This document shows positions 2,080-57,731 of a stretch of DNA of 64,000 nucleotides, piece by piece (the first letter of the stretch is position 1; the number at the start of each line of letters is the position of its first letter). Origin of the DNA: Paramarasmius palmivorus (lineage: Eukaryota; Basidiomycota; Agaricomycetes; Agaricales; Marasmiaceae). The stretch spans positions 124,001 to 188,000 of the forward strand of contig JAYKXP010000086.1 in NCBI GenBank assembly GCA_037176845.1. Reading direction: 5' to 3'. The translations under genes and the position numbers were made by a program. The notes under the pieces were generated by a model. That model made no database searches. It was not told the DNA's origin and saw only the letters and a program-made list of their open reading frames with translations.

Positions 2080-3282
2080 ATGTCAACGAGTCAGCAGGTC
2101 ACTCTGATTGTCGATGTCGACACTACCAGCGCGTTGCTTTCTCCTGCGGATGATTGGCAGAACTTCGAAGACTCAGTATGGTACGGTGGAAATGCCGTGC
2201 GCTCTAATTCAGCTTATTCGTTGGCGTCTTTTAACATGTCGTTTCACGGTACGTCGTACAACACTCACTGAAGTCTATATGTATGATTTACGAGCATATT
2301 ATTCCTTAGGAACATCGATCACACTGTACGGCTACACCGACTCAGGCAGCGTTAGTCTGGATACCGGTCGTTTGGCAAACCTATCCTTCCCGAATCCAAA
2401 AAATGCGGCTACGTATTGGTATCAACCACCCTCGCTCCCCGATCAAGAACACGAGCTTCACGCATGGGTCAGCAACAACACTTACATCGACTATGCACTT
2501 ATCGGCGCTGGAAGCACTACCAACTTGTCAGGAACCACCATTTTCGTTGATGACGCCAACGAGGACGAAGTATGGTATAGTGGAGAATGGACCGTGGAAA
2601 GAGATATCGCGTACCCTCATGGATCTTCAAACCCCAACCCCAATTCGCTGTCCTTGTATGATGCTGCAAACAGTACTGTCCATTACAGTGGCACGCCTGG
2701 AGATTCGTTTGAATTCCACTTTTCAGGTAAATCATTCATTGGCTACCATATTCTTGCTACAATCTCAAGTCATCCGACAGGGAGTAACATCTCCATTTAT
2801 GGAATATACCTCCCAGGGAACTCTACCGTGAATTTTACTATGGATGATATCACCAGACGCATCGATTATTCTCAGGATCTTTCCGGCCCGAGTTCAACGA
2901 TCAATCAATGAATCATATCCTCTACAACACCACACTCATTCCAGGGAACCATACTCTTACAGTAAACATCATCGACTCCCCAGACAACTCCTATTTTTCC
3001 CTCGACTATATCACATACACGCCATATTTCTCTTTCATTAAGGACAAGCCAACGTTCATCAGGAATTCTGATCAGCGCCCTCAGCCAGTAGTGCCGTCTT
3101 CATCTGATAGTGTTTCTTATACAGTTCCCATCGGCGTCTCCGGTATCGTGAATGCTGCCATCGCGATTTTCAAGTATTGTACGAGAGAGGGCAAAGAAGG
3201 TGAGTACGTAACGCTTTGAGTCCCTTCGCTAGATTCTGACAAACCTACGTGACAATTAGAAACGGATGATACTAAAGTATAG
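2080..3282 (+). pseudogene. Membrane-protein paralogue A, frameshifted and tail-less
   Basis: First member of a tandem family of four. Exons read 2080-2248, 2310-2726 and 2781 onward, with introns at the same places as in paralogues C and D. The two extracellular blocks are recognisable (QQVTLIVDVD at the start, YALIGAGSTT, IFVDDANEDE, GDSFEFHFSG, LDYITYTP). The frame shifts within a short ATCAATCA repeat near 2900: upstream the frame ends in a stop at 2911, downstream it resumes as HILYNTTLIPGNHT. The membrane segment is shortened, and after a third intron the last exon ends after about eight residues (ETDDTKV then stop), so the cytoplasmic tail of its sisters is missing. A sequencing error could explain the frameshift but not the lost tail. 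The start has no signal peptide, as in the sisters. Confidence 0.75.
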
Positions 3283-6200: not shown

Positions 6201-6715
6201 TAAGACTTCACGGCTCACACTAACGTAAAGTATATATCTGCGAACCATCAGAGAAGCTAGATGGGAGTACGACGGGAAGAAGATGGAACCCAACTTTTGC
6301 TGTTCAAACTCCCAATGTTTTTGAGTGCACCTATGCTCATTAAAACTAGTTGCCCTACCAGCTACTTCATGCAAAGCCTCGACAAGATACGAGCATCCTC
6401 ATCCTGTGTCCTTGCGGATCCTGGCATGCTTTCGAAACGGACAGGGAAAGCGACATCGTATGCAGGATCAATCATGAAATCAGATATCACCTGGGAGATC
6501 TGTCAAACTAACACTGGAATTGTTCAAGAATACCCGCGGGCGAATTCCTTGCCACATACTTAAGAATAATACACAGCTCTGGATCGCAGCTTCGATTCCC
6601 TTCCTTGTCTCTGCCAGGAGTACAACGTTTTGTGCCCTTTCCTCCCTTTCCCTTGCACAGGAGAGTCCGGATCGTATAGTGCAGAACGCTCTATCTGAAC
6701 TTTCTACAATCCAAC
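3283..6715. other. Unassigned 3.4 kb; weak exon-like stretches on the minus strand
   Basis: No gene is recognised. On the minus strand, 5176-5560 can be read as several short exons separated by GT-AG introns of about 50 bp (for example a block reading LRYESGKWIMR joined to PQPFSPSFSLINLN). Around 5836-6201 a 120-codon frame contains EYRTLRDQLLSLEPVQGSAV. I recognise no family, and no start or end is convincing. 4560-5000 is pyrimidine-rich on the minus strand and open in two frames. These may be remnants of decayed genes. Confidence 0.3.
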
Positions 6716-6740
6716 ATGTCACGGAGCCAAGAGGTTACTC

Positions 6741-7290
6741 TATGAGTGTTAAAGTGTTCAAAAAATAAATCAGGTCCCCGGTAATAACTTTTCAGTCCCC
6801 CGGTAATATTTTACCTACTTTTGTGACATTCCAGTACATTACGCCCCCCGTAAATAACATCGAAATCCCCCGGTAATAACCAAAAATCCCCCCGGTAATA
6901 ACAATCTTCGACGAAACACCGCCCGGTAATAATCGGCTATTTCGAAGTGCTTTCCCACGCACGTGGCCTATGTCGAATACATCTTGAATGCATCCTCAGT
7001 GCTCAGGCATCATGATCTAAGCTCAACTGAGTATTGGATCTGATTCAGGATATAATTAAGGACTTGAATATGCAATATTTAGTAGTCCCTGATGTGTAGA
7101 GTATAGGCCATAGCCACGTACTTTACTTTGACACGTATGAACAAGGTCTTCAGTGTCGTTCGGAAAGCCAGCTCGCCTCTTGAACGTGATTCACTGCTAA
7201 GAGCATCACGATTTGACTAGTCATTGTTGAGTATGTTGAATTGAACGTGGCACCTCATGCACACGAGTCGTAATGCACATTCGCTCTGCA
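6741..7290 (+). repeat. Left terminal inverted repeat of the fold-back element
   Basis: The left arm. Bases 6741-6944 are mirrored at 8493-8696 without a difference I could see. The next 350 bases match with gaps (shared blocks include CATGATCTAAGC, ACTTGAATATG, CATTCGGAAAGC in part, CTCGCCTCTTGA, TTGAACGTGGC). Six GGTAATAA-type motifs lie between 6774 and 6931. Confidence 0.88.
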
Positions 7291-8149
7291 TTCCGATGGG
7301 GCTATTCCCACGCTATCTGCACATCTTCAGCTACATTCGGATAGCTGCCCTGCCACTCAGATATAATTTGACAAGTTATGAGCAGTGTAGAGCTTGGTTT
7401 AGAGTATTTATGGACATCTTCATATGTGACTTAACTGAAGACAGTAGAAATGATGGAAGGAGATCTTGACATGTTGAGTGTAGACACAGTGTGGTTGGGC
7501 AAATGGGTATTATTCGACACTCAACGTCATCATCTAATTAGTCATTCAGTCCTATATTCAGCGTTGAATTCTTGTCGACAGGTTCCTCGAAAATAACATA
7601 GTATCACCTTTAGGCGCCCATATCAGCGCTCATAGCAATTTCAACCTTACATAGTGCATTACTTGTTTGTCACTTCACCACCATGCCGCCAGCATAGGCT
7701 TAATATTCTATATCTCTCAACTCTATTCTTCAAATAGTCGCAGGTTATATGGTAATGTTATTACCACTTTTTCATTGCTTTGATCCTCACTGATGTCTTG
7801 ATCACCAAAGTATACCTAGATAGTTGTACATGTTCGAGCTCTCATTAGTGAGAGTCCATCTGAGTGAGCTCCTTGGCCTCATTCAGGCTACAAGTGTAGC
7901 AATGATAAATTCAAGTTGTGTATCATTTCTGGACCCTTATTCAAATTGCTCAATTGCACTGATTCATATCTAGCTATGTATTTTGACATGAACTAATGAT
8001 ACTAAGGCATCTACTGACATCGTAATAGTCAGGATAATTGTACGGGAAGGGACTCCCCATACTCCTGCAAATTTCACGAAGGTACCAAGAGCACTTTGCC
8101 AACTTGCCACATTTGGCAACTCTGGTCAACACTGTTGAACGGTTAGCGC

Positions 8150-8696
8150 CCATCGTGACTCACGAGGCGCCACGTTCAATCCCATATAGTACTCAATGTA
8201 CTCAATGATGAAAATGCAATACTTTTACCATTGCATCATGGTCAAGAGGCGAGGCAGCTTTCCGAATGATGCTAAAGACTTGTTTATGTGTGGGAGTCTC
8301 TTTCAGTAAGTCACACAAAAGTACGTCGCTATGGGCCATGCTCTACTCCTCAGAAACACAAGATATTGCATATTTAGGTACTTGAATATGTCATAAATAA
8401 AATTAAATACTCAATGCAGCTTAGATCATGAAGCCTGAGGATGCGCTCAAGATGTGTTCGACGTAGGCCACGTGCGTGGGAAAGCACTTTGCCGAAATAG
8501 CCGATTATTACCGGGCGGTGTTTCGTCGAAGATTGTTATTACCGGGGGGATTTTTGGTTATTACCGGGGGATTTCGATGTTATTTACGGGGGGCGTAATG
8601 TACTGGAATGTCACAAAAGTAGGTAAAATATTACCGGGGGACTGAAAAGTTATTACCGGGGACCTGATTTATTTTTTGAACACTTTAACACTCATA
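8150..8696 (-). repeat. Right terminal inverted repeat of the fold-back element
   Basis: The right arm, the reverse complement of the left. Its outer part (8493-8696) is identical by eye and its inner part is diverged. It ends at 8696, immediately before TTACTC and the continuation of the interrupted reading frame. Confidence 0.88.
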
Positions 8697-8816
8697 TTAC
8701 TCTGATTGTAAATGCGGACAATAGCACCATGTCCTTTTCCCCGGGTGATTGGGGTTCAACGCCGCCGCGGCTTGGCGGACTCGGAGATATTGTCGACGGC
8801 CTATTTGCATCTATCG

Positions 8817-9010
8817 GTACGTCGCGTAATGATCACTTAAGACTTATTTCTAATTTACGAGGAATGCGCTCACTAAGGGTATGACGGAGATGTTGCATAT
8901 GCAAATGTAAATCCATCCGTATTCACAGTTTTTGATATGTCATTCCACGGTACGTCATGTAATGATCACTTGAGACTTATTTCTAATTTACAAAGGATGC
9001 TCTCTTCAAG
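8817..9010 (+). repeat. Tandemly duplicated intron within paralogue B
   Basis: 8817-8877 and 8950-9010 are both 61 bp, both begin GTACGTC and end AAG, and match at about 51 of 61 positions by eye. Both can be spliced in frame, flanking a 72-nt exon that reads YDGDVAYANVNPSVF and ends in MSFHG like exon 1 of C and D. Paralogues A, C and D have a single intron here. The repeat unit is 133 bp, so one tandem duplication created an extra intron. Confidence 0.75.
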
Positions 9011-10663
9011 GGACCTCAATCGCACTCTACGGATACGCTGAATCATATCAGGTGGACTTGGATAACAGAACTGGGTCACAATTATCCTCGCGAGGAGGGC
9101 CAGACTCATATTGGTATCAATCACCGCCGCTTTCCGATCAAGAACACATGCTTCGCGCATGGGTCACCGGCGGTGCTTACATCGACTATGCCCTTATTGA
9201 AGCTGGAAGCACCACTGATTTGTCGGCAACAACCATTTTTGTCGATGACGCCAATGAAGAAATTTGGTATACTGGACAATGGATGGAGGATGTAGGCTCC
9301 GGCTCCGGGTCAACCCTTACCGATTCGCTCGCAAACCGAACTGTTCATCGCAGTAACACGACTGGGGATTCCTTTGAGTTCCGCTTCGCAGGTAAATTAT
9401 ATACCAATATGTTAATATACTATAAAAATCTCAGTTCATGCACAGGGACTTCAATGTCTGTTTATGGACTATATAACAGGTCCGCCAATTATACCGTGGA
9501 CTTTATTATCGACGGCAGCAATGAGCACCGCAAATATCCTCAGGATAATCCTGTTGCCTCTGATGGGATACGTAATTATAACATCTATGGGAATACAACA
9601 CTCACTCCAGGGAATCATACTCTCATAGTAAACATCACAAGCGTCTCGAGCGATGCTTACTTCTACCTCGACTATATAACGTACACACCCTCATTCTCTT
9701 TCATTCACCAGAAGCCAACCTTCGTCAGGAAACCCGAGGATCAGCAATTACCCCCGTCCTCATCAGCCTCAGTGCCACCCTCACTACCTACTAATACCTC
9801 ACCACCGACAAAACCTTTGTTACTTTCCATGGGAGCGCTTGTCGGAATCGTGATTGCTGGCCTCTCGATGGTGATCTTTGCCGGACTTTTTAAGTGCTTT
9901 TGGAAAAAGAGATCTGCGTCAAGGAAAGAGGGTGAGAACGTCTCACAGCGATTCCTTTGCAGACATTTAATAAAACAATTGCATTTCATTAGCGAAAATC
10001 ACCTCTAGGATGGAGCCATTCGCAACACGTTTCGCATCTGATGTAAAGTCAAGACCGAACAAGTGGAGAGAACTCTTTCCATCCGAGGACATGGAATCCA
10101 ATGCCATTGAACCGAGGGGCGAAGGGAGTTCTCACCTTGCATCACTACGTGTACCGGAGGTTCAGTTCCGAATGGATTCGCTCACAGCTGAGATACAGAA
10201 CTCGGATGATCTCACTCGCAGGGAGCTGTTGGCCAGGAACAATATGCTCACGATGGAAGTAGAAAGACTCATACGCGAGAACGCCCCCCCAGAGTATGGA
10301 GGAAGTGTTGTTGGTTTGGAGAGGTCGAATTCGCACTCTGGGACATTGCCGTCCTACAACTACCGCGAAGGGTCAGAGAGGTCATGATCTTACTCTTTTG
10401 GGTCGATGGTAGTGATATGGCAGTTGAACGTAACAGTTTCCACGCGATACAACAAGACTTTTGGGTCACTTCCTTGGATATAATATTTCATTGCACGATA
10501 GATTTAGCTAACAGAGTATTCCATGCTACTGTACCATTGCGACCAAGTGTCCACGGGGTGTGACCTAGGCTGCACCCAAGTGTTCACAAGCTCACGGGCC
10601 GTACACTGTAAACTGTTCACGACCGGGTGTTTGAGTTACGTGAATTTACCAAGTATTTCAGCT

Positions 10664-11094
10664 CATCCAAACAAAGAGCTCCACCCGGCCAGGCACGCCG
10701 ACCCGGCGCTTGTCCAGCGCTTCAGCAGTTGAATGATGATTAGTTATTGTCAATGATTTCCCCACCAATTCCCATGTCGAAGTCTTCATCTCAACGCAGT
10801 CCTTCACACAGAAATTGAATCGTTATCTCTTGAAATCTATACCCTAGCTACCTACCGACCGGGCCATTGACCGACTCTGTCGCTGAGGCTCTGCCTTTTC
10901 TTATCGGTTTCTTTGACGAGAGCAGCGTCAATGACCTTCTAGATAGCATGACCATTTTATTGGATATCATAGCTTGTGACTGTGGTAGTGGTATATGGTC
11001 TATGTACGGTTGGCTACTGTGAATGCGACTGCTGCGAGCGCCAGACAAGCGTTGGGTCGGCACCCCTGGCCGGGTGGAGCTCTTTGTTTGGATG
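10664..11094. mobile_element. MITE-like inverted-repeat element (431 bp)
   Basis: CATCCAAACAAAGAGCTCC at 10664 reappears as its reverse complement ending at 11094. The arms match over roughly 75 bp with a few substitutions (shared CACCCGGCCAGG, CGCTTGTC and CAGCAGT blocks). No coding frame lies between them. Flanking target duplication is not clear. Weaker inverted similarity outside (TGTAAACTGTTCACG against CGTAAACAGCTGTTACAG) suggests the true ends may be further out, near 10590 and 11165. It lies between paralogues B and C. Confidence 0.7.
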
Positions 11095-11715
11095 TCAATA
11101 CCATCAGCAGGACTGATTTTCGCAAAAAACTGCTAGGGATTCGTAAACAGCTGTTACAGTAGAATATTCGAGATACTGGCGAGGGGCATGCGATTGCGAG
11201 GCAAAAGCCTTATTTTTACATACCTCAAAGTATTATGACTTACCGCGTGCTTCCCATGCGCACATGAATACTGCTGGGCTCGGGTGCTGAGCGAAGATGA
11301 CGTGGGTGGGCGGGGTAAGCTAGAAGTAAGCTATTCTTGAAGCCTTAGCAACAGATAAGAATCTGATGGCTATCATCGGGCTGCGTTCTCGATGATATTT
11401 GGCGTTGAAAATATCACAGCGCATATAGCCCTTTGAATCTAGTTCTATAAGTCTCAAAACAGTCGATCGATTATTGCATACAACTCGGATTTATAGGCCA
11501 CAAATAGAGTAGATATAATCATTCTCAATAGTGTACCCATGTGCGTTGACCACTACTCTGGATCAGCAGTTGCCTTGACTCCCATCTATCACCTCTGTTG
11601 ATGTTAAAAAGCAGAGTCCACATCACAGTCAACTTGACCCCTCCTCAGCCTTTCCACGTTCACTCGTCAACATTCAACCCTTTGTGGAGGACACGTTCGA
11701 TATTCGAAAATCCAA

Positions 11716-13292
11716 ATGACTAGCAGTCCGCAAGTATCCCTCATCCTCGATATGAACAATAGCAAATTTTCCTTTCACCCACCAAGTGATGGAACTCAGT
11801 GGGAGGATATTAGTAGCCCTACGTGGTATAACGGAACGGCTAAATCCAATACGAGTCCGTCTCTGGGATTATCAATGGAGACGAGATTTAACGGTGCGTT
11901 CCATAGCCTCTCAATGTTTTGAAGGGATTTACAGAAGTATGGATCTGAAGGGACATCAATCTCTCTTTATGGATACGTCGCGGAATTTCAGGTCAATTTA
12001 GATAGGTTTGACTATGGTACACTCAGCATGTCTCTACCGGGAGCTACATATTGGTACCAATCTTCACCGCTTCCAGACGGAGAACACACACTTTCGGCAC
12101 ATTTCACTAACGACACATTCCTTGATTACGTCCTCATCATGGCTGGACAGAACAATATCCTCTCCGAAGAAACCATTTTCGTGGACGACTCCAAGGAAGA
12201 CGAAATATGGTATTCTGGACAGTGGAATACAGAGCTGAATGTGTGGTACCCAGTTGAGAGCAAAGACGCGCCTTATGGCTACCAGGCTGCAGACCGTACT
12301 CTTCATCGAAGTAACACAACCGGTGATTCCTTTGAGTTTCGTTTCTCGGGTTCGTAACAGGCCCATATGCATGTACTACTGCCCTCACATGCTGTCTTAC
12401 AGGAACCTCAATATCAGTGCATGGGATCTATATTACAGGGAATTACACCTTGGACTTTAGCATGGATGGTAACATCCAACGCAAAACTTACCCTCAAGAC
12501 TATACACCTCCAGAAGGGTATTCAGGATATTTAATGCATCATGTTTTCTATGAAAACACAGTGCTCAGTCCCGGGAATCACGCCCTCGTTGTCAACGTCA
12601 CCAGCATCACACCAGGCGGCTTTGGGACTGACTTTAACCTTGACTACATCACATACAAACCCTCTTTTGCTTCCGTGAACGAGAAGCCTACGTTCATCAG
12701 GGGTTCCGATAGTCAACAAACACCACGAGGGGCACGCCTCCCCATTGGAGCGATTATAGGCATAGCAATTGGTGGCGTCTTATTACTACTCGTTCCTGGA
12801 CTCCTGTTCTTTTTTCGGAGAAGGAGAATGGCATCGAGGAAAGAGAGTGAGTCTTTCCTGAATTCTTTCTGACAACTCTTTGTATATTAACTTATGATAG
12901 GCGAAACGGCCTCGACTGTAGACCCATTTGCGACGCATCTGGGCGTCAGCTCAAAACCCAAGCCCAGCAAGTGGGCCGAAGCGTTCCCGTCGCAAAACGG
13001 CACTGACACGGCAGAGTTAGCGGACGAAGGAATTCCACATCTCCCACCTCCATGGAGTACAATGGAGGTTAGACGACGGAACGAGGAGATTACTGCTCTT
13101 TCCGTTCAAATGGAACATTCGGATAATCCCACTCGCGGAGAGCTATTTGCCAGAATTAACGTGCTCACGATGGAGGTTGAAAGACTAGTGCGAGAAAATG
13201 CACCGCCGGAGTATGGAGGGAGTGATGCAGGTCAGAGGCCAAATTCAGGTTCGGGAACACTTCCATCTTATGATCCCCGTGAAAGGTCATAA
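11716..13292 (+). CDS. Single-pass membrane protein, paralogue C (intact)
   Basis: Four exons: 11716-11893, 11951-12349, 12403-12846 and 12901-13292, giving 470 residues. The start MTSSPQVSLILDM aligns with the other family starts and has no hydrophobic signal peptide. Two extracellular beta-rich blocks follow (TWYNGTAKSN to LDYVLIMAG and IFVDDSKEDEIWYSGQW, then TSISVHGIYITGNYTLDFS to LDYITYKPSF) with several N-glycosylation sequons. A helix near residues 310-335 (LPIGAIIGIAIGGVLLLL) is followed by FFRRRRM, the expected cytoplasmic side. The tail has a heptad-like stretch (LFARINVLTMEVERLVREN), PPEY at 442-445 and LPSY nearer the end. Role is inferred: a surface receptor or adhesion-type protein. 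The intron positions match A and D exactly. Confidence 0.88.
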
Positions 13293-14296
13293 AGTTGTTG
13301 ATACGGTACGACACCTTTTGGTTCCTGAAAACTGCTTGCTTTACAGATTGATCATTACGGTCTTGAATCATGTATTATATTTGTATAGTCAACCTTCAGA
13401 CATTGGCCTTTGGATTTCATATACTCACATGTCAACAGTGGATGTAGCTTCAACATTTTCTATAGTGGTATCAAAATAACGACGCTTGTGAATGGTACGT
13501 GGCTTTCAATATTTTGAAGCTACATGGACTCCTCCAACACTCCCAATCACTAGTGCACAACTTATAAGCAATAGTTCTTAGCAATGTCATCGGTGTGGCG
13601 TAGTCATATACAGCCTATACCATAGTCTCGACTCATGTACGCTCAATGGACAGGTTGATTCATTATAAGCTAAGACTATACAACCTTTGACCTATTGCAA
13701 AAGCCTCTGCCGTCTGAACTTCACCAAAGATGGTATAGTCGCATTATCCTGCATTTCGACATGGCAGTGTGCAATCACGGAGATGAACGGTTATGATCAA
13801 GTTGTGATACCTTTCTTCAAGAACACGTCAACAACCGCCCTTACACGGTCACACTAATGTTAATAAGGGGAGTTTTGCGTGCAGAGTTGAAGGAAGGGAG
13901 CATATAGAGAGCATCTATATCCTGACCATTCAGTGTATACTTATGAGAGGAATAGGGCAAAACTCAGCTTGAATCTAGTATTGAAATGGTGTGTTCTGAA
14001 AGAACCGGGGGTTAGGAGTTAAACTCATAGACAATGAGCGGAAATGTAGAATGACATATCGAAGAGACATATTCTCCTTCCTGGCGGTCTTGATCTGATC
14101 AAATCCCAAATTTGGTACAGGTAACAAATCACCAACCGTGAACCATCATAACCATCAGCATATGCGGTACTAATTGATGGAAACAAGATAAGGACCACTG
14201 CCTTCTACTGTTAAAAATTGAGTGCGCTACCCACGGATACAAACATTGTGAGAAGATAGAGCCACAAACCAGATCGAGTGATGAAATTGCTCACCA
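13293..14296. other. Intergenic, nothing recognised
   Basis: AT-rich sequence between paralogues C and D. Short open frames only, no inverted repeats or RNA genes seen. Confidence 0.5.
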
Positions 14297-14303
14297 TATA
14301 AAA
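14297..14303 (+). promoter_or_regulatory. TATA box of paralogue D
   Basis: TATAAAA lies 142 bp upstream of the ATG at 14445, a normal distance for a fungal core promoter. No comparable box is so well placed before C. Confidence 0.55.
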
Positions 14304-14444
14304 GTACAAGCCACGGCTCCGGAGCTCAGACTTCGATTCCCATCATTGCCTCTACTCGGCCTGAGCAACCGTCTTGTCTGCCCTCCTAGTTTGCTTTTCC
14401 TCAACTATCTCGTAGATCGTGTGGCTCAATATTCACAATCCGAA

Positions 14445-16070
14445 ATGTCGAGCCTGGCCAGCCAGCAGGTCACATTGATTGTGGATGTGGACGATAGTAG
14501 TTCACCTTCCAAGGCGGACAACCTGCAGTACTCCGAAGATCCAGTATGGTATGGCGGAAATGCTGCATTGATAAATGCAAGTCAATCCGCATCCCCAACT
14601 TTTAACATGTCATTTAACGGTGCGTCGCCTAATAATCGCTGAAGGACTCTATTGATGGTTCACGAAAATAATCTCCTCAAGGAACATCAATTGCACTTTA
14701 TGGATATGCCCTGGGATCTACGGTGTACTTGGATGATGAAACCAGCGCACAATTAACTGCGTCGGCCAACGAAGCAACATACTGGTATGAATCACCGCCA
14801 CTTTCCGATCAAGGATACAAGATTCGCGCGTTGGTTGGGAGTGATAGTTACATGGACTATGCCTTGATCAAAGCTGGAAACACCACCGATTTGGAGAGGA
14901 AAACCATCTTTGTTGATGACGCCAATGAGGACGAACTGTGGTACACTGGAGAATGGATAGCGGACACGAATCTGGTATATCCTCATGGACTTCAAAACGC
15001 CAGGTTACCCCCTGTATATCATCCTGCAAACCACACTGTTCATCACAGTCGCACACTTGGTGATTCCTTTGAGCTCCGCTTTACAGGTAAATCATTTGTT
15101 GGCACGCTGTAAAAATCTCAATTCCTGCTACAGGAACTTCACTGTCTGTTTATGGAGTGCATGACCCTTCGGGAAATTACACCGTGGACTTTATTATGGA
15201 TGGTAGCATCAAACGCATTGTTTATCCTCAGGTTGATTTCGAGCTCAGCAACAGTAGCAGCAGATATCCTCAGGGTAATCTTACTTTCGGCAATGGTGAC
15301 ATTTCAGGTTGGATGATCAATTATAAAGTCTATGAGAATACGACGCTCAGTCCAGGCAATCACATTCTCGTAGTAAATGTCACAACCCTCATGGATGGCT
15401 CCAACTTCTATCTCGACTATATAACGTACACACCCTCCTTCTCATTCATTCACGAAAAGCCAACCTTTATCAGAGGTTCCTCATCAACAGTGTCGCCGGT
15501 AACACTTCCCATTGGAGTGATTGTTGGTATCGTAATTGCTAGCCTTTCGGTGATGGTTATTGCCGGGGGTCTCTGCTATTGTCGGAGAAAGAGATCCACA
15601 GTCAAGAAAGAAGGTGACTACATTTCATAGCCAAATTATCGCCAGGATCTTGATCAAACCACGGTACACTAGCAGAAATCGCCTCTAGCATTGAACCTTT
15701 CGTCACAGGTTTTGCAGCTGATTTGAAGCCGAAACCAACCAAATGGCGAGAACTCTTTCCACTCCAGGACACGGGCTCGCCAGAATCAACGGTCAACGAA
15801 CTACCACCCCTTGCACCGATGCGAATACCGACGAATATGACTGAGGTTCAACGAAGAAACGACGAGATAGCCTCACTCTCTGCCCAAATCGCAGGTTCAG
15901 ACCGCCCTTCACGTGGAGAGCTGTATGCCAGAATCAACACCTTGACAATGGAGGTTGACAGGCTCGTACGAGAGAATGCACCGCCGGAATACGGAGGAAG
16001 CGATGAAGGTCGGAGGCTGAGTTCACGCGAGGGAACGCTTCCGTCCTATGACCATCGTGAAAAATTGTAA
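14445..16070 (+). CDS. Single-pass membrane protein, paralogue D (intact)
   Basis: Four exons: 14445-14619, 14682-15086, 15134-15613 and 15676-16070, giving 484 residues. I chose the ATG at 14445 (MSSLASQQVTLIVDVDDSS) because it matches the starts of A-C. An in-frame ATG at 14346 would add 33 residues containing a hydrophobic run (SLLFLNYLV) that could act as a signal anchor. The extracellular part has the family blocks (YMDYALIKAGNTT, IFVDDANEDELWYTGEW, GNYTVDFIMDG, NFYLDYITYTPSFSFIHEKP). The membrane helix is near residues 320-345, followed by CRRKRST. The tail contains TMEVDRLVREN, PPEY at 456-459 and LPSY ten residues from the end. Family role is unproven; signalling or uptake at the cell surface is my inference. 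Confidence 0.88.
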
Positions 16071-16550: not shown

Positions 16551-17004
16551 CTAGGCACCTATGTTGTGACGAGTTATCGAAGCAAAAGGATTGTCATGAA
16601 AGAAGCAAGAAGGATCTTATCGTGGAAGCATCTCGATTGGCACAGGATCAACCGAGATACCAATAGAATGCTAATCCCGCTCTACGCCCCTGTTCAATCG
16701 TACGCTTCCTTCTTCTGCATGCCTAACAAACAGGATCAAGGGATTGTGGATGCATCAGCTCAGGATTTCGTATCAAGAAACAAAATGACAAGCCAACTTA
16801 TTTTACGTTAAAAATGCAGAAGGACGGTGTCAGGAACCCACTGCGCTCGCTGTTCATCCCTTCGATACATCGTTGACAAGGAGTATGGGGAACGGAGTCG
16901 ACGTCGATACGTAGCTTGCTGTAGTGATCTCTTATCTGTCTCTACGATCCGGCACGGTATCTTCCACACAATGCTACGCAAAAACCGCGCTCTAATTAGC
17001 GAAC

Positions 17005-17098
17005 CTCCCTGGCCGGGAGTCGAACCTAGCTTTCGCGCAGCGATTGAACTCGCGTTCCACATGATAGGCGCGTGTAGTAACCGATATACTACCAGGGA
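17005..17098 (-). tRNA. tRNA-Asp-like gene with anticodon ATC, degenerate
   Basis: Acceptor TCCCTGG pairs perfectly with CCAGGGA. The D arm is GTATATCGGTTACTAC, the anticodon stem CGCGC/GCGCG pairs, and the loop reads CTATCA, so the anticodon is ATC where Asp tRNA has GTC. About 23 nt follow as an intron. The T stem CTAGG/CCCGG has one mismatch. The B box GGTTCGACTCC is intact, and TTTTT occurs about 20 bp downstream on this strand. It is the best preserved of the three apart from the altered anticodon. Confidence 0.55.
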
Positions 17099-17589
17099 GA
17101 TATCGTAGTATTACATGTCTGCACTATCACAGGTATGGAGTGTTTTTGGCAGACAGTACAAGCAAGGTACAGGGAAGAAGACGGGGAAGGCTACGATGTT
17201 ACATCCGATGTTGTCCCTCTCTGCTGTCAAAGAAGTACGTCAGAATCTGTTTTGAGACGAAGGAGACTATATATACCGAAGGGAGATTGAATAACTGCGG
17301 CGGAAGGTTGCCCAATTCCTGATCTTCCTAAGTCCTCTGATAATACCGGTACCAGGTTTATACAACAGGACAACGAGCCGAAGCAGTTGGTATGGGCGTG
17401 CGTGGGCGTGCGAATGGAGGAGTAGGTGTGGGTGAAAGATAGATTCTTCATTGAGAAGGGTTTAGGGACGTATCCTATCCTAAAAGACACATCAACGCTA
17501 GCCCGTTGAGGAGAAGCAGGTACACATACCTAATTCCCATTCTTATGCCCCAGTAGCCTAAACACAGATGACCCAGCCCCGTATATCTC

Positions 17590-18272: not shown

Positions 18273-18493
18273 GGTAGGTCGGTCTCACGTTTCTGATCTG
18301 TAGCCCATCGAGATTCTGCGCCGACTCCAGGCAGAACAGAAGAAACTGTGTGGACGAGGCAGGTCGGGATGGATGGAGATGGAAAGCAAAGCGTAGCTGT
18401 CACATTGGTCACTGTCACGTGTTTCGTCCGAAAAGGAGGCCGCTCCGCTCCGATATTGATGACAAAAGGTACAACACTGGCGGAGATATATAA

Positions 18494-18576
18494 TTCCCTG
18501 GCTGGGAGTCGAACCCAGCTTCCGCGCGATCCCTGCAAATGACAGGCGCGTGTACTAGCAAATAGACTACCAGGGA
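18494..18576 (-). tRNA. tRNA-Asp(GTC)-like gene, degenerate D loop
   Basis: Acceptor TCCCTGG pairs with CCAGGGA, the anticodon stem CGCGC pairs with GCGCG, and the loop CTGTCA gives anticodon GTC, followed by an 11-12-nt insert. T arm CTGGG-TTCGACT-CCCAG is perfect. The D loop (ATTTGCT) lacks the usual GG, the A box is altered, and the discriminator base is A rather than G. No oligo-T terminator is adjacent. Likely transcription or folding defects. Confidence 0.55.
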
Positions 18577-19520
18577 ACGACGTACTGTAAGAGCATTGTA
18601 CAGTAACAGTAGACATAGTGGTTCAACGCGGCGCGGCGGAGCTTTCCGGATTCCGAACTCCGTTTTCTGTCCCGAATCGGTGCACAGCGGCCATCAAATG
18701 AAGCACTCTGTGGCCGATTTGAATCGCGATCCCCTTGCTCCGAACTTTGCATCTTGCTTCCGCTCCATCATCATGTTCGAGTTCGCTGGATTCGCGATAA
18801 ACCTCGTTTGACTCTCCCTCATTGCCTGTGTCCAGTAACTCAATATATTCTACTCTCTTGGCAATTAGCTTGCTCTACCCGGCAAACTCGAAGAAACCTT
18901 GGCAAACTCGATATCACGCTTATACACTCCACAACATTCGGGGTCTGCTCGCATTTGAAGCTACAACATCCTGATGGTTGTCATATCTTTTCCGAGGCAT
19001 TGCGTCAAACGCTTCTAAATTGCAAATTACTGCTATGCGTAAACGGGCATCTTTATGACTGTCGAGCTTTGTTCCATGGCATCTATTCTTTGGGAAGAGT
19101 GGCTATCGTCATTACAATCATGGCTTTGGAACGCAAAACAAGTGGAATCGGTCTATCTCGACATGGATAAACACCAGGGTGAGAGTTCCTTGCCATCATG
19201 TTCATACCAGCGTAGTTCTAACCTTGCCAAGACACCGTATACACCCTCATTCCTATGTATCACCCGCAACAAAGTGGAGCATCGCAGGGTTACACCACAT
19301 GTCGCTCGTACGACCAGTATTCACCATAATCTCATGACAACGAATTCGTCCTCTCAAATTTGTCTTCCCTCGACTCGGTTATTCATCAAACTGCATTTCT
19401 GTGGAGCATCAACGTGTAACCACACATGCTCACACTGCATGATTCCATCTCAATGGATACACGTCCGACGAGCTACTTTAACTTTCTCTCTTGCAAGCCC
19501 GAAGACCGATACCTCAGAAG

Positions 19521-39241: not shown

Positions 39242-40595
39242 CTACATCGGGTCTTTCTCCAGTAGGTTCGATCCGCTGCGTTGATACCGATGAATAAGGC
39301 TTACAGCCAGTCGATTCTGGTGGCCACATCGAGGAAAGATATGCAGCGCCCGTTGCGCATGAGCCAACCCCTCTGTCGAGTCACTGCCATATACAGGAAT
39401 ATAGACCTCCTTTTGGACAAGAGAAAGCTGCTCTGAAGAAAGTTCCTCGTCCAATCCGCTCCACGCCGACGTTGACAGAAGATTATTTTGTCCGATGACA
39501 AAATTTAGCTTCTTCAACCTGGCAGATGAAACAGATCGCAAGGGTCGTATCAGCCTTTGTAGAATCACTTCGAGCTGTGGAAGCGGTGCTGATGTGTTCA
39601 CCTTGGAATCAGGGATATGAATGCTGAGTGATTCGAGGCGCAAAAGATGCGATAGATTGAATTCATCTGCAAGAACTTCAGCCAATGAACGTCAAAGCGA
39701 CAATCGGAGCTTCCTCACACCCAGATGCATCTTCTTCGTCTTCTCCTAGGTAACTGAGCGGGTCTATCTCATCGCTAGGAATGCTGAGATATACCGAAGT
39801 CAGTTCACTGCTCAGCTGAAGGTATGTCGGTACTCTTTCTTCGGGGGATGATGCACTGTCGCAGTTCAGGATAGACAGTTCTCTAAGGTTTGGCATTGTC
39901 TGACCACGAAGCCATCCCCAAAACGTATCTCCGGCGAATCCGTGGAATAGAATAATGTTGAGTTGCAGAGTACGAAGGAGTGGTGGAAGAGTGAGATCAA
40001 TGCGAGGCTCGTTATGAAGATCATCTAGAAGAGCACCGCAGCTGATCCCCAGGATCTCCACGCGCGAAAAGGACGAAATAAAGAGAAACAAGGAATTAAA
40101 TGTCTCCATCCGGAGGTCCAAATCAAGGCGGACAATCTGTGAGAAGGGAGCGTGAAGAAAGTCACGGTACTCCTGGTGATTGAGAAGAGGTGACGCAAAG
40201 TCCATCGCGATTGCCAAAGTATTCACGTTAATCCTCCCATTCAGTTGCTCGATGGCCTGATTGGAGGACTGTAGATGCCGGTCAAATGCGGAAAGATCTT
40301 CGTCGTCTTCATCGGGGGCTGGTTGTATAAAAAGGGTGATATTGCGGATGGCGTGAAGAGGATAACGTGCGAGATTATTGTAGAAGAGGTCTGACTGTTG
40401 TCGAGAGACGAGGCGAAATTTTGCTCCTTGGCTGAGGTAGCGAGAACATATGGTTGACCATGACGGAGACACGAGGCTGCAGGGATGCAGAAGAGTGTTC
40501 CCATCGTTTGCTTCGGCATGAAGTCCCAGAATCGTGTCAATGATCTCGAGGGGAATGGATTCTCGAGATTTGACCTTTGGCTGGCTCTGAGGCAT
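39242..40595 (-). CDS. F-box-like protein, copy 1 (intact)
   Basis: Two exons on the minus strand, 39719-40595 and 39242-39666, giving 433 residues. The start at 40595 (MPQSQPKVKS) aligns with copy 3; an ATG ten codons upstream is also possible. Residues 14-60 have F-box character (IPLEIIDTILGLH, then LLHPCSLVSPSWSTICSRYL). The rest is leucine-rich without clear repeats (NITLFIQPAPDEDDED, LDLDLRMETFNSLF, LPPLLRTLQLNI, DPLSYLGEDEEDA). The donor GTGAGG gives TCTGGGT joined to ATGAATTC. F-box proteins recruit substrates to SCF ubiquitin ligases; whether this diverged type still binds Skp1 is not known. Mushroom genomes carry many such copies. Confidence 0.85.
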
Positions 40596-41847
40596 TGCCT
40601 TGAAATTGGGTGATAAAGGGTGCATTTCTCGGAGGTCTTATATGTCTTAACTGGCTCGGGAAAGGTTGGAGAAAGGCGGGTGTCAACCAATTCTACGTGT
40701 TTTGCCATTACACGAAGCGGCCGCATCAGCTCGATGCTGATCCAAATAACGTCAAGTGATTGAACCTTATTCGACATGGGACGGGGACTAACGTCAAAAA
40801 AGCTGGAATGCACTCCCCGTACTTTGAATAATCAATAATCCAGTTGCGAGATCAGTAAATAGTAAGTAGTAGCCAATTTCTAAGGTTCGCTGCAAACGCC
40901 CAAGAGTGTCTTGTCCAACATGTACAGTTGGGATCTCGGGAGATAGTGATCAAATCAGGATGAATTTTAGTTAGAAGCCCGGGAGATCTATATTTCAGGA
41001 ACACTAAATGCCTATTCAAACGGATTAATGGACACATTCGCACATAGCTTTGGCAACTTGCGACAAATTTGCGGTCACGATGGGAACTCCGTGACCAGAA
41101 AATTCCAAGAAAATTCCCAGCTTTGGCAGCATCTACTCGGGGTTAGGTTATTCATAACAACCCTGGGAATCGCCAACGTAGGCCACATGGGCTATTATAC
41201 CTTCATGCAAACGCTGGATGGTATCCTGAGTATAGAATCATTAAGAACACTCGGCAGCTGATCCAAATGAAAGCAAACGGAAGCATAATATCGCAATGAA
41301 CCATAAGGGCGCAGCGTTGCGATGTCATGACATTGAATGGGTAGATGCTATGTGGAGCGTCTTTTGTTAATGTATTGTACTATGACGGTGCGGCAGGCAT
41401 TTCGACGAGGGTTTGGGGTGTCATTGCAACCAACGACATACGATTTCGACTGAGGATCTTTGAAGATCTAAGCACGGCGTTTTCCGATCACGGGGATTCG
41501 GATGCGCTTGCTAATGGTAATGGCGCAATCGAGGGCTCGGGAATCAATATCAGGTGTCAGGACCCTACCCATCGCCATCAAGCCTATGGGGCGCCAATAA
41601 AGGGCGTTTTACACTTCATGCTGGTGGTTTCCGACCTCAGGTATAGGCTAATGCCTCAAGTCAACACGTAATGTGACGAGTTAGACCTTCTATAGCATAT
41701 TGTTTGCGATTCTATCGACAATCGTACTAAATTGAGTTCCGGAACGAAATTTTGCCATTCAAGCTTTCGCGTGAACCTGAACGTGTGACTAACGATATTC
41801 AAAGTTAGTGAGCTCGCATAGACCTAAGTGGAGACCAGTAGGAATAC
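40596..41847. other. Intergenic between F-box-like copies
   Basis: No supported gene. The frame at 41345-41671 (plus) is open but resembles nothing I know. Confidence 0.4.
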
Positions 41848-42999
41848 CTATAACGAATCTTTTTCCAACAGGTTTGTTCCGCTTCGCTGGTAGCCTTCGA
41901 GAAGCGTAATGGTCAGACGTCCTTGCTCTCCACATAGAGGAAATAGATGCAAAGCACGTTTTACATACGTCAGCCTCGTGGGGAAGGGACAGGAATGAAT
42001 ATCTCCTTTTGGACGAAGGAGAACTGGCCCGAACAAAGCACCCCATCCAATCTATCCCATGCTGGACTGGAAAGGATCACATCGAGCTGAGGGAGTGGTG
42101 CTGATGAGTCTACCTTGGAATCTGGGATATGGATGTTGGAGGATCCAAGGGAAGAAAGGTCCGCGAGATCATACTCATCTGCAAGAGAAATTAACAATTG
42201 AATACAGCGAAAATGAAATAGGCTCACATCCAGATGCTTCTTCAAGATACATGAGTGGACTCGTGTCATCACTCGGAAAACTGAGGTACAGGGAAGTCAA
42301 TGTATCGTTGAGTAGAAGGTATGTTGGTACCCTCTACTGAGGACCTGATGCACAATCGCAGCTGAAACACGGCAATATTGAGATGTAGGGTATGAAGGAG
42401 TGGCGGAAGATAGAGATCTACATGCAGCTCGACGTTGGGATCATCCTGGAGGGCGTCACAGGTTATACATAGGATCTCCACCTGGATGAAAGAAGAAATG
42501 AAGAGAAACAGATAGTTGAATGTCTCCGTTCGGAGGTCTAGTTGAACGATATTTGGGAAGTACAGTAACTTTGGTGAGTAAGGAGAGATGTTGAAAAGCC
42601 CATGGCCAGTGCCAGACTCTTCACGTTCGTCCTCCCGCTTATTTGTTCGGTGATATGAATGGATACCCGTAATTGGCTGTCGAGCTCGGAAAGGTCATCA
42701 TCATCATCATCATCTTCCTCGTTGGCAGGTTGCATGAAAATGGTGATATTATGGATGGAATGAAGAGGGTAATGAGCGAGGTAGCGGTAGAAGGGATCTG
42801 ATTCCTGAAGGTGAGTGGATTCGGACCTTTGCCCCCCTCCGCGAGATAGCGAGCAATATAGTTGACCATTACCGGGAAACGAGGCTACACGGATACAGGA
42901 GAGCATTGCCGTTGCTTTCACTGGCATGAACCCTAGAACCACGTCGATGAGCTCCATGGGAAGGGAGCACAGCGAAGATTTGGCCGGAGCTAGCGACAT
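41848..42999 (-). pseudogene. F-box-like protein, copy 2 (decayed)
   Basis: A shortened minus-strand relative of the copies at 39242-40595 and 54866-56247. Recognisable pieces occur in order but in different frames: LPMELIDVVLGF, then DPFYRYLAHYPLHSIHNITIFMQ with an expanded acidic run (GATGAT repeats near 42690-42715), VEILCITCDALQDD, LPPLLHTLHLNI, NIHIPDSKVDSSAPLPQLDVI, LVQ-like FSFVQKEIFIPV, and the end ALHLFPLCGEQGRL with GYQRSGTNLLEKDSL. At least three frameshifts and two internal deletions (around 42340 and 42050) separate these. No ATG-to-stop frame survives. Confidence 0.82.
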
Positions 43000-43516
43000 A
43001 GAGGGCCTGGGGACGAGGTACAAAATATAAGGGTACGAAATATAAGGGTTCTCCATAAGATCAGGTGTGATGATTGCGTACGTTGACTACATTCAGGGGG
43101 GCGCTCCATGCTGAAATGATTTTTTCGTGTTGTCACCCTACATTTCAGGTATTTCAATGAATCACTCAGCATTACACGTATCTACTCGAGTATAAAGCCT
43201 CTAAGCCGACATTGCACTGTAACTAGAGGATCCAGTACTCAGCGGCAAATATTCCTAAAATAAAGTCGAAGGGGAGAGTCACCAGGCTCCGAAATCCAGG
43301 ACGCTTGTATAAATGAACCACTCTGCACCGCTTTGGCTCCATCACCAAATGGCGGCGTATCGCGGTCTACAATGAATACTGAGTCGCCTGCTTTGACAAG
43401 CGTGTATCAACGCGAGATTGTCGGTAGTGGACGGACATGAGAAGATGAACATATGGAGAATAAGGTCATTGGTAAGCAGTGCTTTTGAAAGGGCCGGTCT
43501 AATATTTGCACAATGT

Positions 43517-54367: not shown

Positions 54368-54468
54368 GGTAAGATGGCCGAGCGGTTAAGGCGTGTGACT
54401 CAAGCTTTGGTGAAAGCTTCCCTTCTCATGGGAGAAATCCCGCCTGGGTTCAAATCCCAGTCTTACCA
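54368..54468 (+). tRNA. tRNA-Leu(CAA) with intron
   Basis: Acceptor GGTAAGA pairs with TCTTACC, discriminator A. The D arm is GCC-GAGCGGTTAA-GGC (canonical A box). The anticodon loop is CTCAAG, giving anticodon CAA. About 19-20 nt of intron follow, then the 3' half of the anticodon stem (TCATG), a long variable arm (GGGAGAAATCCC) and the T arm CTGGG-TTCAAAT-CCCAG. Long variable arm and CAA anticodon identify Leu; eukaryotic tRNA-Leu(CAA) genes usually carry an intron here. The 3' CCA is not encoded. Confidence 0.93.
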
Positions 54469-54865: not shown

Positions 54866-56247
54866 CTATAGTGGATCCATCATCAGCAAGTTTACTCCAC
54901 TACGCTGATACCGATTAATTAGGCTCACACTCAGCCTTCCTTGCTCGTTACATCGATAAAAGAGATGTAACACTCTCTGGACGTACTCCAGTCTCTCCTG
55001 CACATCGCATCCATGAACCGGAACGTAAATCTCCTTTTGAACGCAAGAAAATTGCTCCGAAAAAAGCAGCTCGTCGAACGCGTGCCATTCCAAGGTCGAT
55101 GACACCAAGTTGTGTCGCCCAATGACTAGATTGAGCTTTCTCAACCGATTTGGAAACGGAAGAGATTTTAGGGTGTGTTTAAGCCTTGACAGGATTACTT
55201 CAAGCTTGGGAAGCGGTGCGGGGCTCACTTTTGAATCGGGTATATGAACGCCGAGTGTGTCAAGGTGTGTAAGGTGTGATAGGTCGTATACATATTCGTC
55301 TACAAGGCAGTTGAAAGTTCAACACTGACTGCAAATAGACAATGGAAACAGAACTCACATTCATCATCCCCGAGATAACTGAGCGGATCGACGTCGTCAC
55401 TTGGGAAGCTTATGTAGAGCGAAGTGAGATTACTGCTCAGCTGGAGGTATGTTGGGACCCTTTCTCCAGGACCTGTTGCACAATCGCAGTTTAGAATGGA
55501 AAGGTATCGGAGGTTTCCCAATGGTATTTGGCTACGAAGCCAGTCACAAATGGTATCCCACGCAAATCCGTGAAAGATTGAGATATTGAGATGTAGGGTG
55601 TGAAGGAGTGGTGGAAGAGTGATCTGATCCATTTCATTGTGTAAGTCATCCGAGTCGAGGAGGACCTCGCAGCTGATACCTAGAAACTCCAAGCGCGTAA
55701 ACGAGGAAATGAATGTGAACAATGAATTGAATGTTTCCATTCGGAAATCCAAATCAAGTCTGGTGATATGTGATTGTGGGAAGCAAGTTACGAGGAGATC
55801 ATGGTAATCTCGGTGATTAAGGAGAGGTGACGCAAAGTCCATCACTAGCGCCAGGGTGTTCACGTTAATCCTTCCCATGAATTGAGAGATGATGTTGTGA
55901 GTTGATTGGAGGTGATGACTGAGTGCGGAGATGTCATTGTCATCTTCTCCACCGGCGGGCTGTATGAAAATGGTGATGTTGCGAATGGAATGAAGAGGAT
56001 AAAGGGCGAGATTGGTGTAGAAGGGGTCTGGGTGTCGTAGCTGGCAAGACACGAGGCGAACCTTTGCCCCTTTGCTGAGGTAGCACGAGCATATCGCTGA
56101 CCATGATGAAGATACGAGGCTACAGGGATACAGAAGAGTGTTCCCGTCGTTTGCCTTTGCGTGATATCCCAGAATCATGTCAACGATCTCGAGGGGAATG
56201 CATTCTCTAGAGTTGGGTTGCTTTGGCTGATTCTGACTCTGCGACAT
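54866..56247 (-). CDS. F-box-like protein, copy 3 (intact)
   Basis: Two exons on the minus strand, 55359-56247 and 54866-55299, with a 59-bp intron; 440 residues. Closely related to copy 1 throughout: MSQSQNQPKQPNSRECIPLE, F-box-like IPLEIVDMILGYH and LLYPCSLVSSSWSAICSCYL, NITIFIQPAGGEDDND, INVNTLALVMDFASPLLNH, LDLDFRMETFNSLFTFISSF, LPPLLHTLHLNISIFHGFA, RVPTYLQLSSNLTSLYISF, DPLSYLGDDE, and the end RYQRSGVNLLMMDPL. The intron position and phase are identical to copy 1. A substrate-recruiting role in an SCF ubiquitin ligase is inferred from the F-box-like start only. It lies 14 kb from copy 1 on the same strand. Confidence 0.86.
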
Positions 56248-57731
56248 AGTACTTTTTTGTAACTTGAAGTGGGTACATCGCTGGAGAAGTAATATATCAA
56301 AGCGCAGTCCGGAAAGGTCGGCCAAAAGTCAACGAAGACTACGTGGTGCGGGAGTATCGGCTGTATGCTGACTGTAACGACGTGAAGTTGTCAACTTTTA
56401 TCAGGATCTGACAAGGCAGGTTAACGTCAAACGCTGTACCTGGACATGCCGACGACCCCGACAGGGTCTAAGCAGTAAGTATCCCACAACGAGAGGACCA
56501 TAACGGCCATCTTACCCTTAACCTGCTATCGACCCTCTCGGCCAGCGCAAGGTTCACACTAGGCAGAAATGATTGCTGTCTGTGTTACCAGATTTGGCGC
56601 TCAAGTTTGACATCGCCACTTTTGAGTACTATCATTGGCTTCAGCCCCGGGCGCTACTTAGTTGACATTTGGGCGCTAGGATAATTCGGATAATCGGATA
56701 TTGATTACAGACGACCTTCTCGAGTCTGGGTGTCGACAACTAAGACGTGGGGCAGGTGTGGACCTGCCCAAAGTGCAAAATTTCTCTCTAATAGAGCAGT
56801 GGAGTAGAACCTCCTCCTTGCTCATGCTTTCGTTTGTGCGGTGCTGTTCATTCTCGTTTTCGATAGTAATGCTGTTTGCTTTCATCTACTACCAATGTGT
56901 CATTATCCATAGTTGCATATTATTCACATTGGTATGAACTGGTCCGAATATGTTTTGATAAATACTCACGAGGCTACGCCGGTTCACAACGCGCTCACTG
57001 GCAAGGAGTGTGGGCAACAAAGAACTCTATTTCTCTCCAGACGACCCTATGATTATTGATTTTGAAGAAATGATATTGGATATGCGGCTCTATTCCTGAT
57101 AGATCTCTGTGCTCATCTGGCGTACAATATAGGTGAGGGTTCTGCTCACTTCTTCATGGACGGCGCGGAACAACCTTGGGAATCTGAAAATAGCCGAGTT
57201 GAATTATCCAAGAGTTCACTGTCATTCCAATTGTAAAAAGGACATGCTTGACGGAGTTTTACTGCGCTTGAACGTCGGAGTTGATGAGGAACAAATTTAG
57301 TGCCATTTGGAGCTGATTTTGTAGTCACTTGGTAGTGAGCGCCAGCGATTGAAGGGTTTTAACGCTCGTTTTACCCAAGTCGCGTTGAACACATAGACTA
57401 ATTATTGTCATGCTATGATCAGCCTTTTGCTCTCACACTCGAGATCTTGGCATAGCATATACTATACAGTAAGTCGCTATGAATACACGGCTCAGATGCA
57501 ATTGATATAGCGGCCGCTGGGTCATGATTCTCCGGCTTGACAACGCAGTTTAGTTATTTTGCACAGGACGATGTTGACAAAGCTTTCAAATTGAAGCAAG
57601 CGGCTATGTTATCAGTGCTTCCCGCCGGGATAGTTCTTAACAACGGTGCCGCCGAGATATATCTGTGCTTCCCGAATCCCTTAAATGCTCGCTGAGAAAC
57701 CACGTACCGAATTCTAATCCAAGACCCTAGC
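56248..57731. other. Intergenic, nothing recognised
   Basis: About 1.5 kb. GGGCGCTA and GGCGCTCAAG phrases recur near 56590-56680. No gene model is supported; frames at 56676-56937 overlap on both strands. Confidence 0.4.

Follow-up and report, generated by a model that had tools for sequence, protein, structure and literature searches.

Why should a family of fungal membrane proteins retain, in cytoplasmic tails that otherwise diverge, a short motif of the kind bound by WW domains? The question is raised by the window analysed here, a 64,000-nt stretch of the Paramarasmius palmivorus genome (Agaricales, Marasmiaceae; contig C86, positions 124001-188000, of a 68.3 Mb genome), which carries four tandem paralogues, A to D, of such a family. 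According to the original prediction, PPxY and LPxY motifs are conserved together in the tails, and the proteins can be ubiquitinated and internalised. We find that the observation holds overall, more strongly than was claimed for PPxY and less strongly for LPSY, and that the interpretation is partly supported, with a plausible core. The reading that we favour, and to which we give about an even chance of being correct, is that of a carbohydrate-facing single-pass protein which docks a WW protein, most likely of the Rsp5/Nedd4 type, and steers itself and a cargo through endosomes.

Both motifs are present at the places predicted in the tails of B (PPEY at 10286-10297, LPSY at 10346-10357), C (13203-13214 and 13260-13271) and D (15981-15992 and 16038-16049), all on the plus strand and with coordinates taken from the sequence. 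The range originally assigned to the three genes, 9993-16070, does contain C and D; of B it holds only the tail, the first exon being split further upstream. A helix precedes PPEY in every one of the three tails, in agreement with the predicted coiled coil; the sequence reported for it, EVERLVREN, is exact in C, and it reads EVERLIREN in B and EVDRLVREN in D. In the helix of D, the hydrophobic residues L425, I429, L432, V436 and L439 (P0001 numbering) follow a 4-3-4-3 spacing, and the structure model of P0001 places a helix at 419-442 and PPEY just after it, at 445-448. The flanking tail sequence is variable, as had been noted: mean identity across 36 pairs of nine paralogues is 79% for the coil together with PPxY, compared to 52% for the tail upstream and 61% downstream.

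This pattern extends to the rest of the genome, where paralogues other than A-D were judged from their tails alone. A six-frame search with D returned at least 104 exon matches. Those on C86, grouped by hand, fall into 15 loci, genes or remnants, which span 4.8-140 kb and all lie on the plus strand, in addition to two minus-strand tail fragments; further family loci lie on 17 other contigs, and three places on contig C247, whose scores equal those of C86 places, may reflect a duplication in the assembly. Thirty-seven tails (36 distinct) were collected by the presence of PPxY, so that their 36/36 score informs on codons and alignment columns and not on frequency. In these, P, P and Y rank above all other columns in conservation, each at 100%, versus a median of 47% over 128 well-filled columns. 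Both proline positions use all four proline codons and the tyrosine position uses both tyrosine codons, which indicates that the protein motif has been retained while the DNA changed.

Frequency was estimated with a motif-blind search, using a coil profile built from the same tails minus the motif columns. It found 40 distinct frames, and 35 of them contain PPxY: 32 were scored automatically (PPxY within eight residues), and L044, gene C and L051 were added from the printed sequence. The five remaining frames (L042, L057, L048, L058 and the second fragment in L045) are all in pieces. PPxY is thus retained wherever a tail frame reads through, and frames without it are broken. Taken together, these sequence comparisons support constraint on PPxY. 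LPxY follows PPxY in 29/40 motif-blind frames (automated count) and in 29/36 distinct tails, with three tails reading LPPY, and in this species it would act as a second site on most PPxY tails. The tails of L065, L069, L071 and Moniliophthora roreri P0013 end shortly past PPPSY, PPPAY or PPPDY, without LPxY.

Is the motif kept outside this genome? Three protein searches, each scoring ~8000 candidates that share most words with the query and giving partial lists, returned 14, 35 and 77 rows, or 123 distinct proteins, and among the matches listed the family is confined to Agaricomycetes. The proteins were handled as the palmivorus group, P0013-P0047 (mostly Polyporales, with Moniliophthora, Mycena, Coniophora and Ceratobasidium) and P0048-P0123 (mostly Mycena and Favolaschia). 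Four proteins with no hydrophobic peak (P0038, P0054, P0086 and P0110) were excluded from the counts, while P0052, whose chosen peak is probably not a true helix, and P0047, a weak and doubtful relative, were kept. Tail PPxY was found in 12/12, 33/34 and 60/73 proteins of the three groups (105/119 overall). The joint conservation that had been claimed breaks apart here: PPxY is general, occurring in 93/107 proteins outside palmivorus, and LPxY, present in 11/12 palmivorus proteins with a membrane segment, occurs in 0/34 and 0/73 of the others, or none of 107, so that only PPxY can be called a general motif. Homologues lacking both motifs had been named beforehand as evidence against the prediction, and 14 of the 107 lack both. 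Several of these 14 look like wrong or truncated gene models, but a single tail without PPxY is common to three Favolaschia proteins, making true loss possible.

The motif also occurs more often than chance would give. PPxY lies within the last 35 residues in 100/116 tails of palmivorus and homologues, whereas shuffled tails average 1.6 and reach no more than 6 in 500 rounds, the rows being related to one another. Outside palmivorus it is mostly C-terminal, with a median of two residues after it and at most 10 in 29/30 and 58/59 proteins. Two alignments of 37 proteins have five and seven invariant columns, which include P, P and Y; these rows were picked for having PPxY, so their invariance is not independent and shows just how few other columns are invariant. 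Such placement bears on the suggestion that PPxY is part of another signal, for instance a YxxPhi-type tyrosine sorting signal, and no WW ligand. The tyrosine is indeed invariant in the 36 PPxY-bearing tails, but so is each of the two prolines, and with a median of two residues past the motif in homologues a hydrophobic Y+3 residue usually does not exist. We regard this explanation as very improbable.

A second and weaker tail feature is a P-F pair near the membrane, represented in D by EPF at 15693-15701 (P in 83% and F in 86% of 36 tails). P-F is found in the first 75 tail residues of 7/10, 24/34 and 55/72 proteins in the three groups, where shuffling gives means of 2.6, 8.8 and 19.7. The reversed F-P control gives 7, 8 and 15, and thus equals P-F in palmivorus (7/10 each).

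The topology that had been proposed is borne out by several predictions. A hydropathy scan gives a single hydrophobic peak in 12/12, 33/34 and 69/73 proteins, with 4/123 showing no peak, consistent with one membrane helix. The 15 residues on the C-terminal side of this helix are more positive than those on the N-terminal side in 9/10, 27/31 and 68/71. N-glycosylation sequons (N-x-S/T) are enriched in the outer part of all three groups compared to shuffled sequence: 63 versus 30.2 in palmivorus (z 6.4; reversed motif 20), 273 versus 122.0 in P0013-P0047 (z 17.4; reversed motif 150) and 296 versus 214.1 in P0048-P0123 (z 6.2; reversed motif 247, which makes this last enrichment weak against the reversed control). 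The same calculation in the tails gives z values of -1.5, 2.7 and -0.4; as the rows are related, all of these z values overstate independence. From charge and sequon distribution, we conclude that the outer part lies outside and the tail inside, and that the family would consist of single-pass surface or endomembrane glycoproteins.

No signal peptide is evident from the hydropathy scan alone, with an early second peak (before residue 60) in 3/119 proteins. We infer export without a signal peptide, in which the membrane helix would serve as a reverse signal-anchor and the chain would be translocated N-terminus first. The family thereby makes a second question testable, namely how an outer part of ~300 sequon-rich residues is exported when no signal peptide is evident.

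What the outer part might hold is suggested by its fold. Both structure models show two beta-sandwich domains followed by the membrane helix, with no catalytic domain as in CE2 enzymes, and on this modelling the outer part consists of a CE2-N/CBM35-like jelly roll that has been duplicated. With the Pfam CE2_N profile (PF17996; cut-off 27.9 bits), four palmivorus proteins scored 15.2-23.1 and a fifth had no match; Trametes P0014 reached 26.6 bits, and CE2_N is a precomputed domain in many Polyporales relatives. The two tandem jelly rolls would probably touch carbohydrate, either in the cell wall or on glycoproteins. Known CE2 esterases and CBM35 modules resemble the family in these jelly-roll domains and the weak CE2_N profile matches, but differ in that the fungal family has two consecutive jelly rolls, a membrane anchor and no catalytic domain in the models. 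Among seven proteins searched, no match to the WSC profile was listed, Mid2 matched P0013 only (15.1 bits, below the 23.2 cut-off), and none of the Pfam matches listed was to the Rcr, Comm or PRRG families, for each of which Pfam coverage is uncertain. In databases, the members are named hypothetical or transmembrane proteins.

Which protein could bind the tail? The ligase invoked by the original prediction has a gene in this genome: contig C6 encodes a C2-like stretch (our own reading), three WW domains that carry HNT in their second half, and a HECT domain, and a second WW3-HECT gene lies on C28. The short tail helix may present PPxY to the WW domains of such a protein, most likely the C2-WW3-HECT ligase. 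As PPxY recurs in most of the relatives from other mushroom-forming fungi, recruitment of a ubiquitin ligase, or of a partner like it, is the probable role of the tail. WW domains are also found in another setting. DUF6535 has 122 matches in the genome, 91 of them above 100 bits; one frame that was read, L077, combines DUF6535 with three WW domains, for eight further DUF6535 matches the reported frame length equals that of a WW match on the same strand, and WW matches lie close to another three. This apparent domain combination is seen repeatedly (L077; C268, C44, C27, C381, C49, C261 and C362).

At least two kinds of candidate WW partner are thus predicted in the genome, and it may be that the PPxY tail docks DUF6535-type WW proteins anchored in the membrane instead of Rsp5, forming a receptor/co-receptor pair without ubiquitin. 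L077 and the cases with matching frame length or a nearby WW match favour this, but Polyporales, which the search for DUF6535-WW proteins did not cover, have PPxY just as often, and Rsp5 is, to our knowledge, present in all fungi. We consider such a pairing unlikely. Still more doubtful, and put forward as speculation, is a mushroom-specific class of wall-facing receptors whose tandem carbohydrate-module domains are PPxY-coupled to both Rsp5 and the expanded DUF6535-WW proteins, in a network grown by tandem duplication.

If Rsp5 is the partner, the family could still be nothing other than its cargo: wall-facing surface proteins that neither sense nor serve as adaptors, and whose PPxY sets nothing but the turnover of the protein that carries it. 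Tails of palmivorus proteins, with 3-7 lysines each (10 proteins counted), would suit such a fate, but distant members have mostly 1-3 and in 3/71 none, and the motif is better kept than the remaining tail. The lysine-poor tails of other species lean towards an adaptor over plain cargo; the plain-cargo reading we hold to be possible but on the whole rather unlikely. The adaptor that we favour would act in a Commissureless-like manner: it would bring the ligase both to itself and to anything bound by its outer part, and so steer the two through endosomes.

Precedents for such a role come from published accounts. Commissureless (Comm) uses PY motifs to recruit Nedd4 to its cargo Robo1 in one complex (PMC12101832). 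Comm of insects and the PRRG proteins of vertebrates are alike single-pass with an L/PPxY-type cytoplasmic tail, and Comm and two PRRGs are described as having no signal sequence (PMC5578492), as in the fungal family none is evident. The order of motifs in palmivorus tails, PPxY before LPSY, is that of Comm and unlike that of the PRRGs. The differences are that no sequence relation is seen, that tandem jelly rolls take the place of the Gla domain, and that PPxY alone is the general motif in the fungal family. Among fungal membrane proteins, yeast Rcr1/Rcr2 and Sna3 also have Rsp5-binding PY motifs (PMC5578492, PMC2171029), VPEY being the one in Rcr1 (PMC5578492); unlike them, the palmivorus family has an outer part that is large and rich in sequons, occurs in many tandem copies and shows no Pfam match to such a family. 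The wtf meiotic drivers of fission yeast are likewise a gene family with PY motifs, which bind Rsp5/NEDD4 ligases and set endosomal sorting (PMC10721834), but they are multi-pass, and the palmivorus family gives no hint of a toxin-antidote pair. In the basidiomycete Cryptococcus, Rsp5 is reported to act in the Rim pathway via a functional analogue of the Rim8 arrestin (PMC12345238), which offers a precedent for unusual Rsp5 partners in basidiomycetes.

Several observations weigh against a sugar-facing ligase adaptor. PPxY is missing from 14/107 homologues, and the association of intact tails with the motif does not run in both directions, as two broken copies still have it: B, and L060, whose tail contains a stop. 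The genome has WW proteins other than the Rsp5-type ligase, and the lysine-poor distant members may not themselves be ubiquitinated. Tails of P0013-P0047 are mildly enriched in sequons (26 versus 16.1 shuffled, z 2.7). None of the five palmivorus proteins reaches the CE2_N cut-off, and a shared jelly-roll fold, itself modelled, does not demonstrate sugar binding. Finally, yeast Rcr1 is described as affecting chitin deposition independently of Rsp5 (PMC5578492), so that docking of a ligase need not be the main role. Set against this, an Agaricomycetes-wide family keeps a WW-docking motif far better than other parts of its tail, making the partner directly testable. If the adaptor reading is true, mushroom-forming fungi would have a non-arrestin route by which to direct Rsp5 to the cell surface. 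Among the literature matches listed, there was no description of the family, nor of Agaricomycetes paired with PPxY.

The gene models behind these results were spliced from the DNA, with GT/AG borders throughout in C and D, and all lie on the plus strand. Gene D has four exons and an open frame of 485 amino acids, 98% identical to NCBI VNI00_014777. Exon 1 (14445-14619) contains the start codon and the first part of jelly-roll domain 1; exon 2 (14682-15086) the remainder of domain 1 (to ~14896) and the start of domain 2; exon 3 (15134-15613) the remainder of domain 2 (to ~15453), a stalk, the membrane helix and a basic stretch; and exon 4 (15673-16070) the cytoplasmic tail. Domain borders follow the P0001 model, and the helix, at approximately 15504-15583, is the lone hydrophobic peak of P0001 (model helix 320-348). 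Gene C also has four exons (11716-11893, 11951-12349, 12403-12846 and 12901-13292) and an open frame of 470 amino acids, 51% identical to D; its helix, from reading the sequence, lies in exon 3 at ~12738-12815, and exon 4 is the tail. Paralogue A (2080-3219, end approximate) is degenerate in the spliced reading: its exon 3 contains a stop, and no tail can be read.

Paralogue B is interrupted. Its exon 1 begins with a 5' piece at 6715-6740, upstream of an insertion, and the remaining exon 1 through exon 3 lies at 8697-9930; these pieces were translated separately, and the tail exon, 9993-10387, carries a complete tail. The NCBI model of B, VNI00_014775 (P0012; 290 amino acids), covers the 3' part and begins only in exon 3. 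B also contains a tandem duplication (8815-9012) of 65-nt copies, 133 nt apart and 85% alike. Within exon 1 sits an inverted-repeat element of ~1.95 kb (6741-8696), with 204-nt arms (6741-6944 and 8493-8696) that are 100% complementary; TTACTC flanks it on both sides if each end is moved two bases outward, and the element resembles a recent transposon insertion. Between B and C (10664-11094), a 58-nt inverted-repeat pair, 88% complementary, is similar to a miniature inverted-repeat transposable element. Elsewhere in the window, three related minus-strand frames (39678-40637, 42538-43086 and 55300-56328) have an F-box/leucine-rich-type look by eye, and a scan at the bacterial setting predicted tRNAs for Asp (atc) at 17004-17099, Asp (gtc) at 18493-18577 and Glu (ctc) at 54395-54467.
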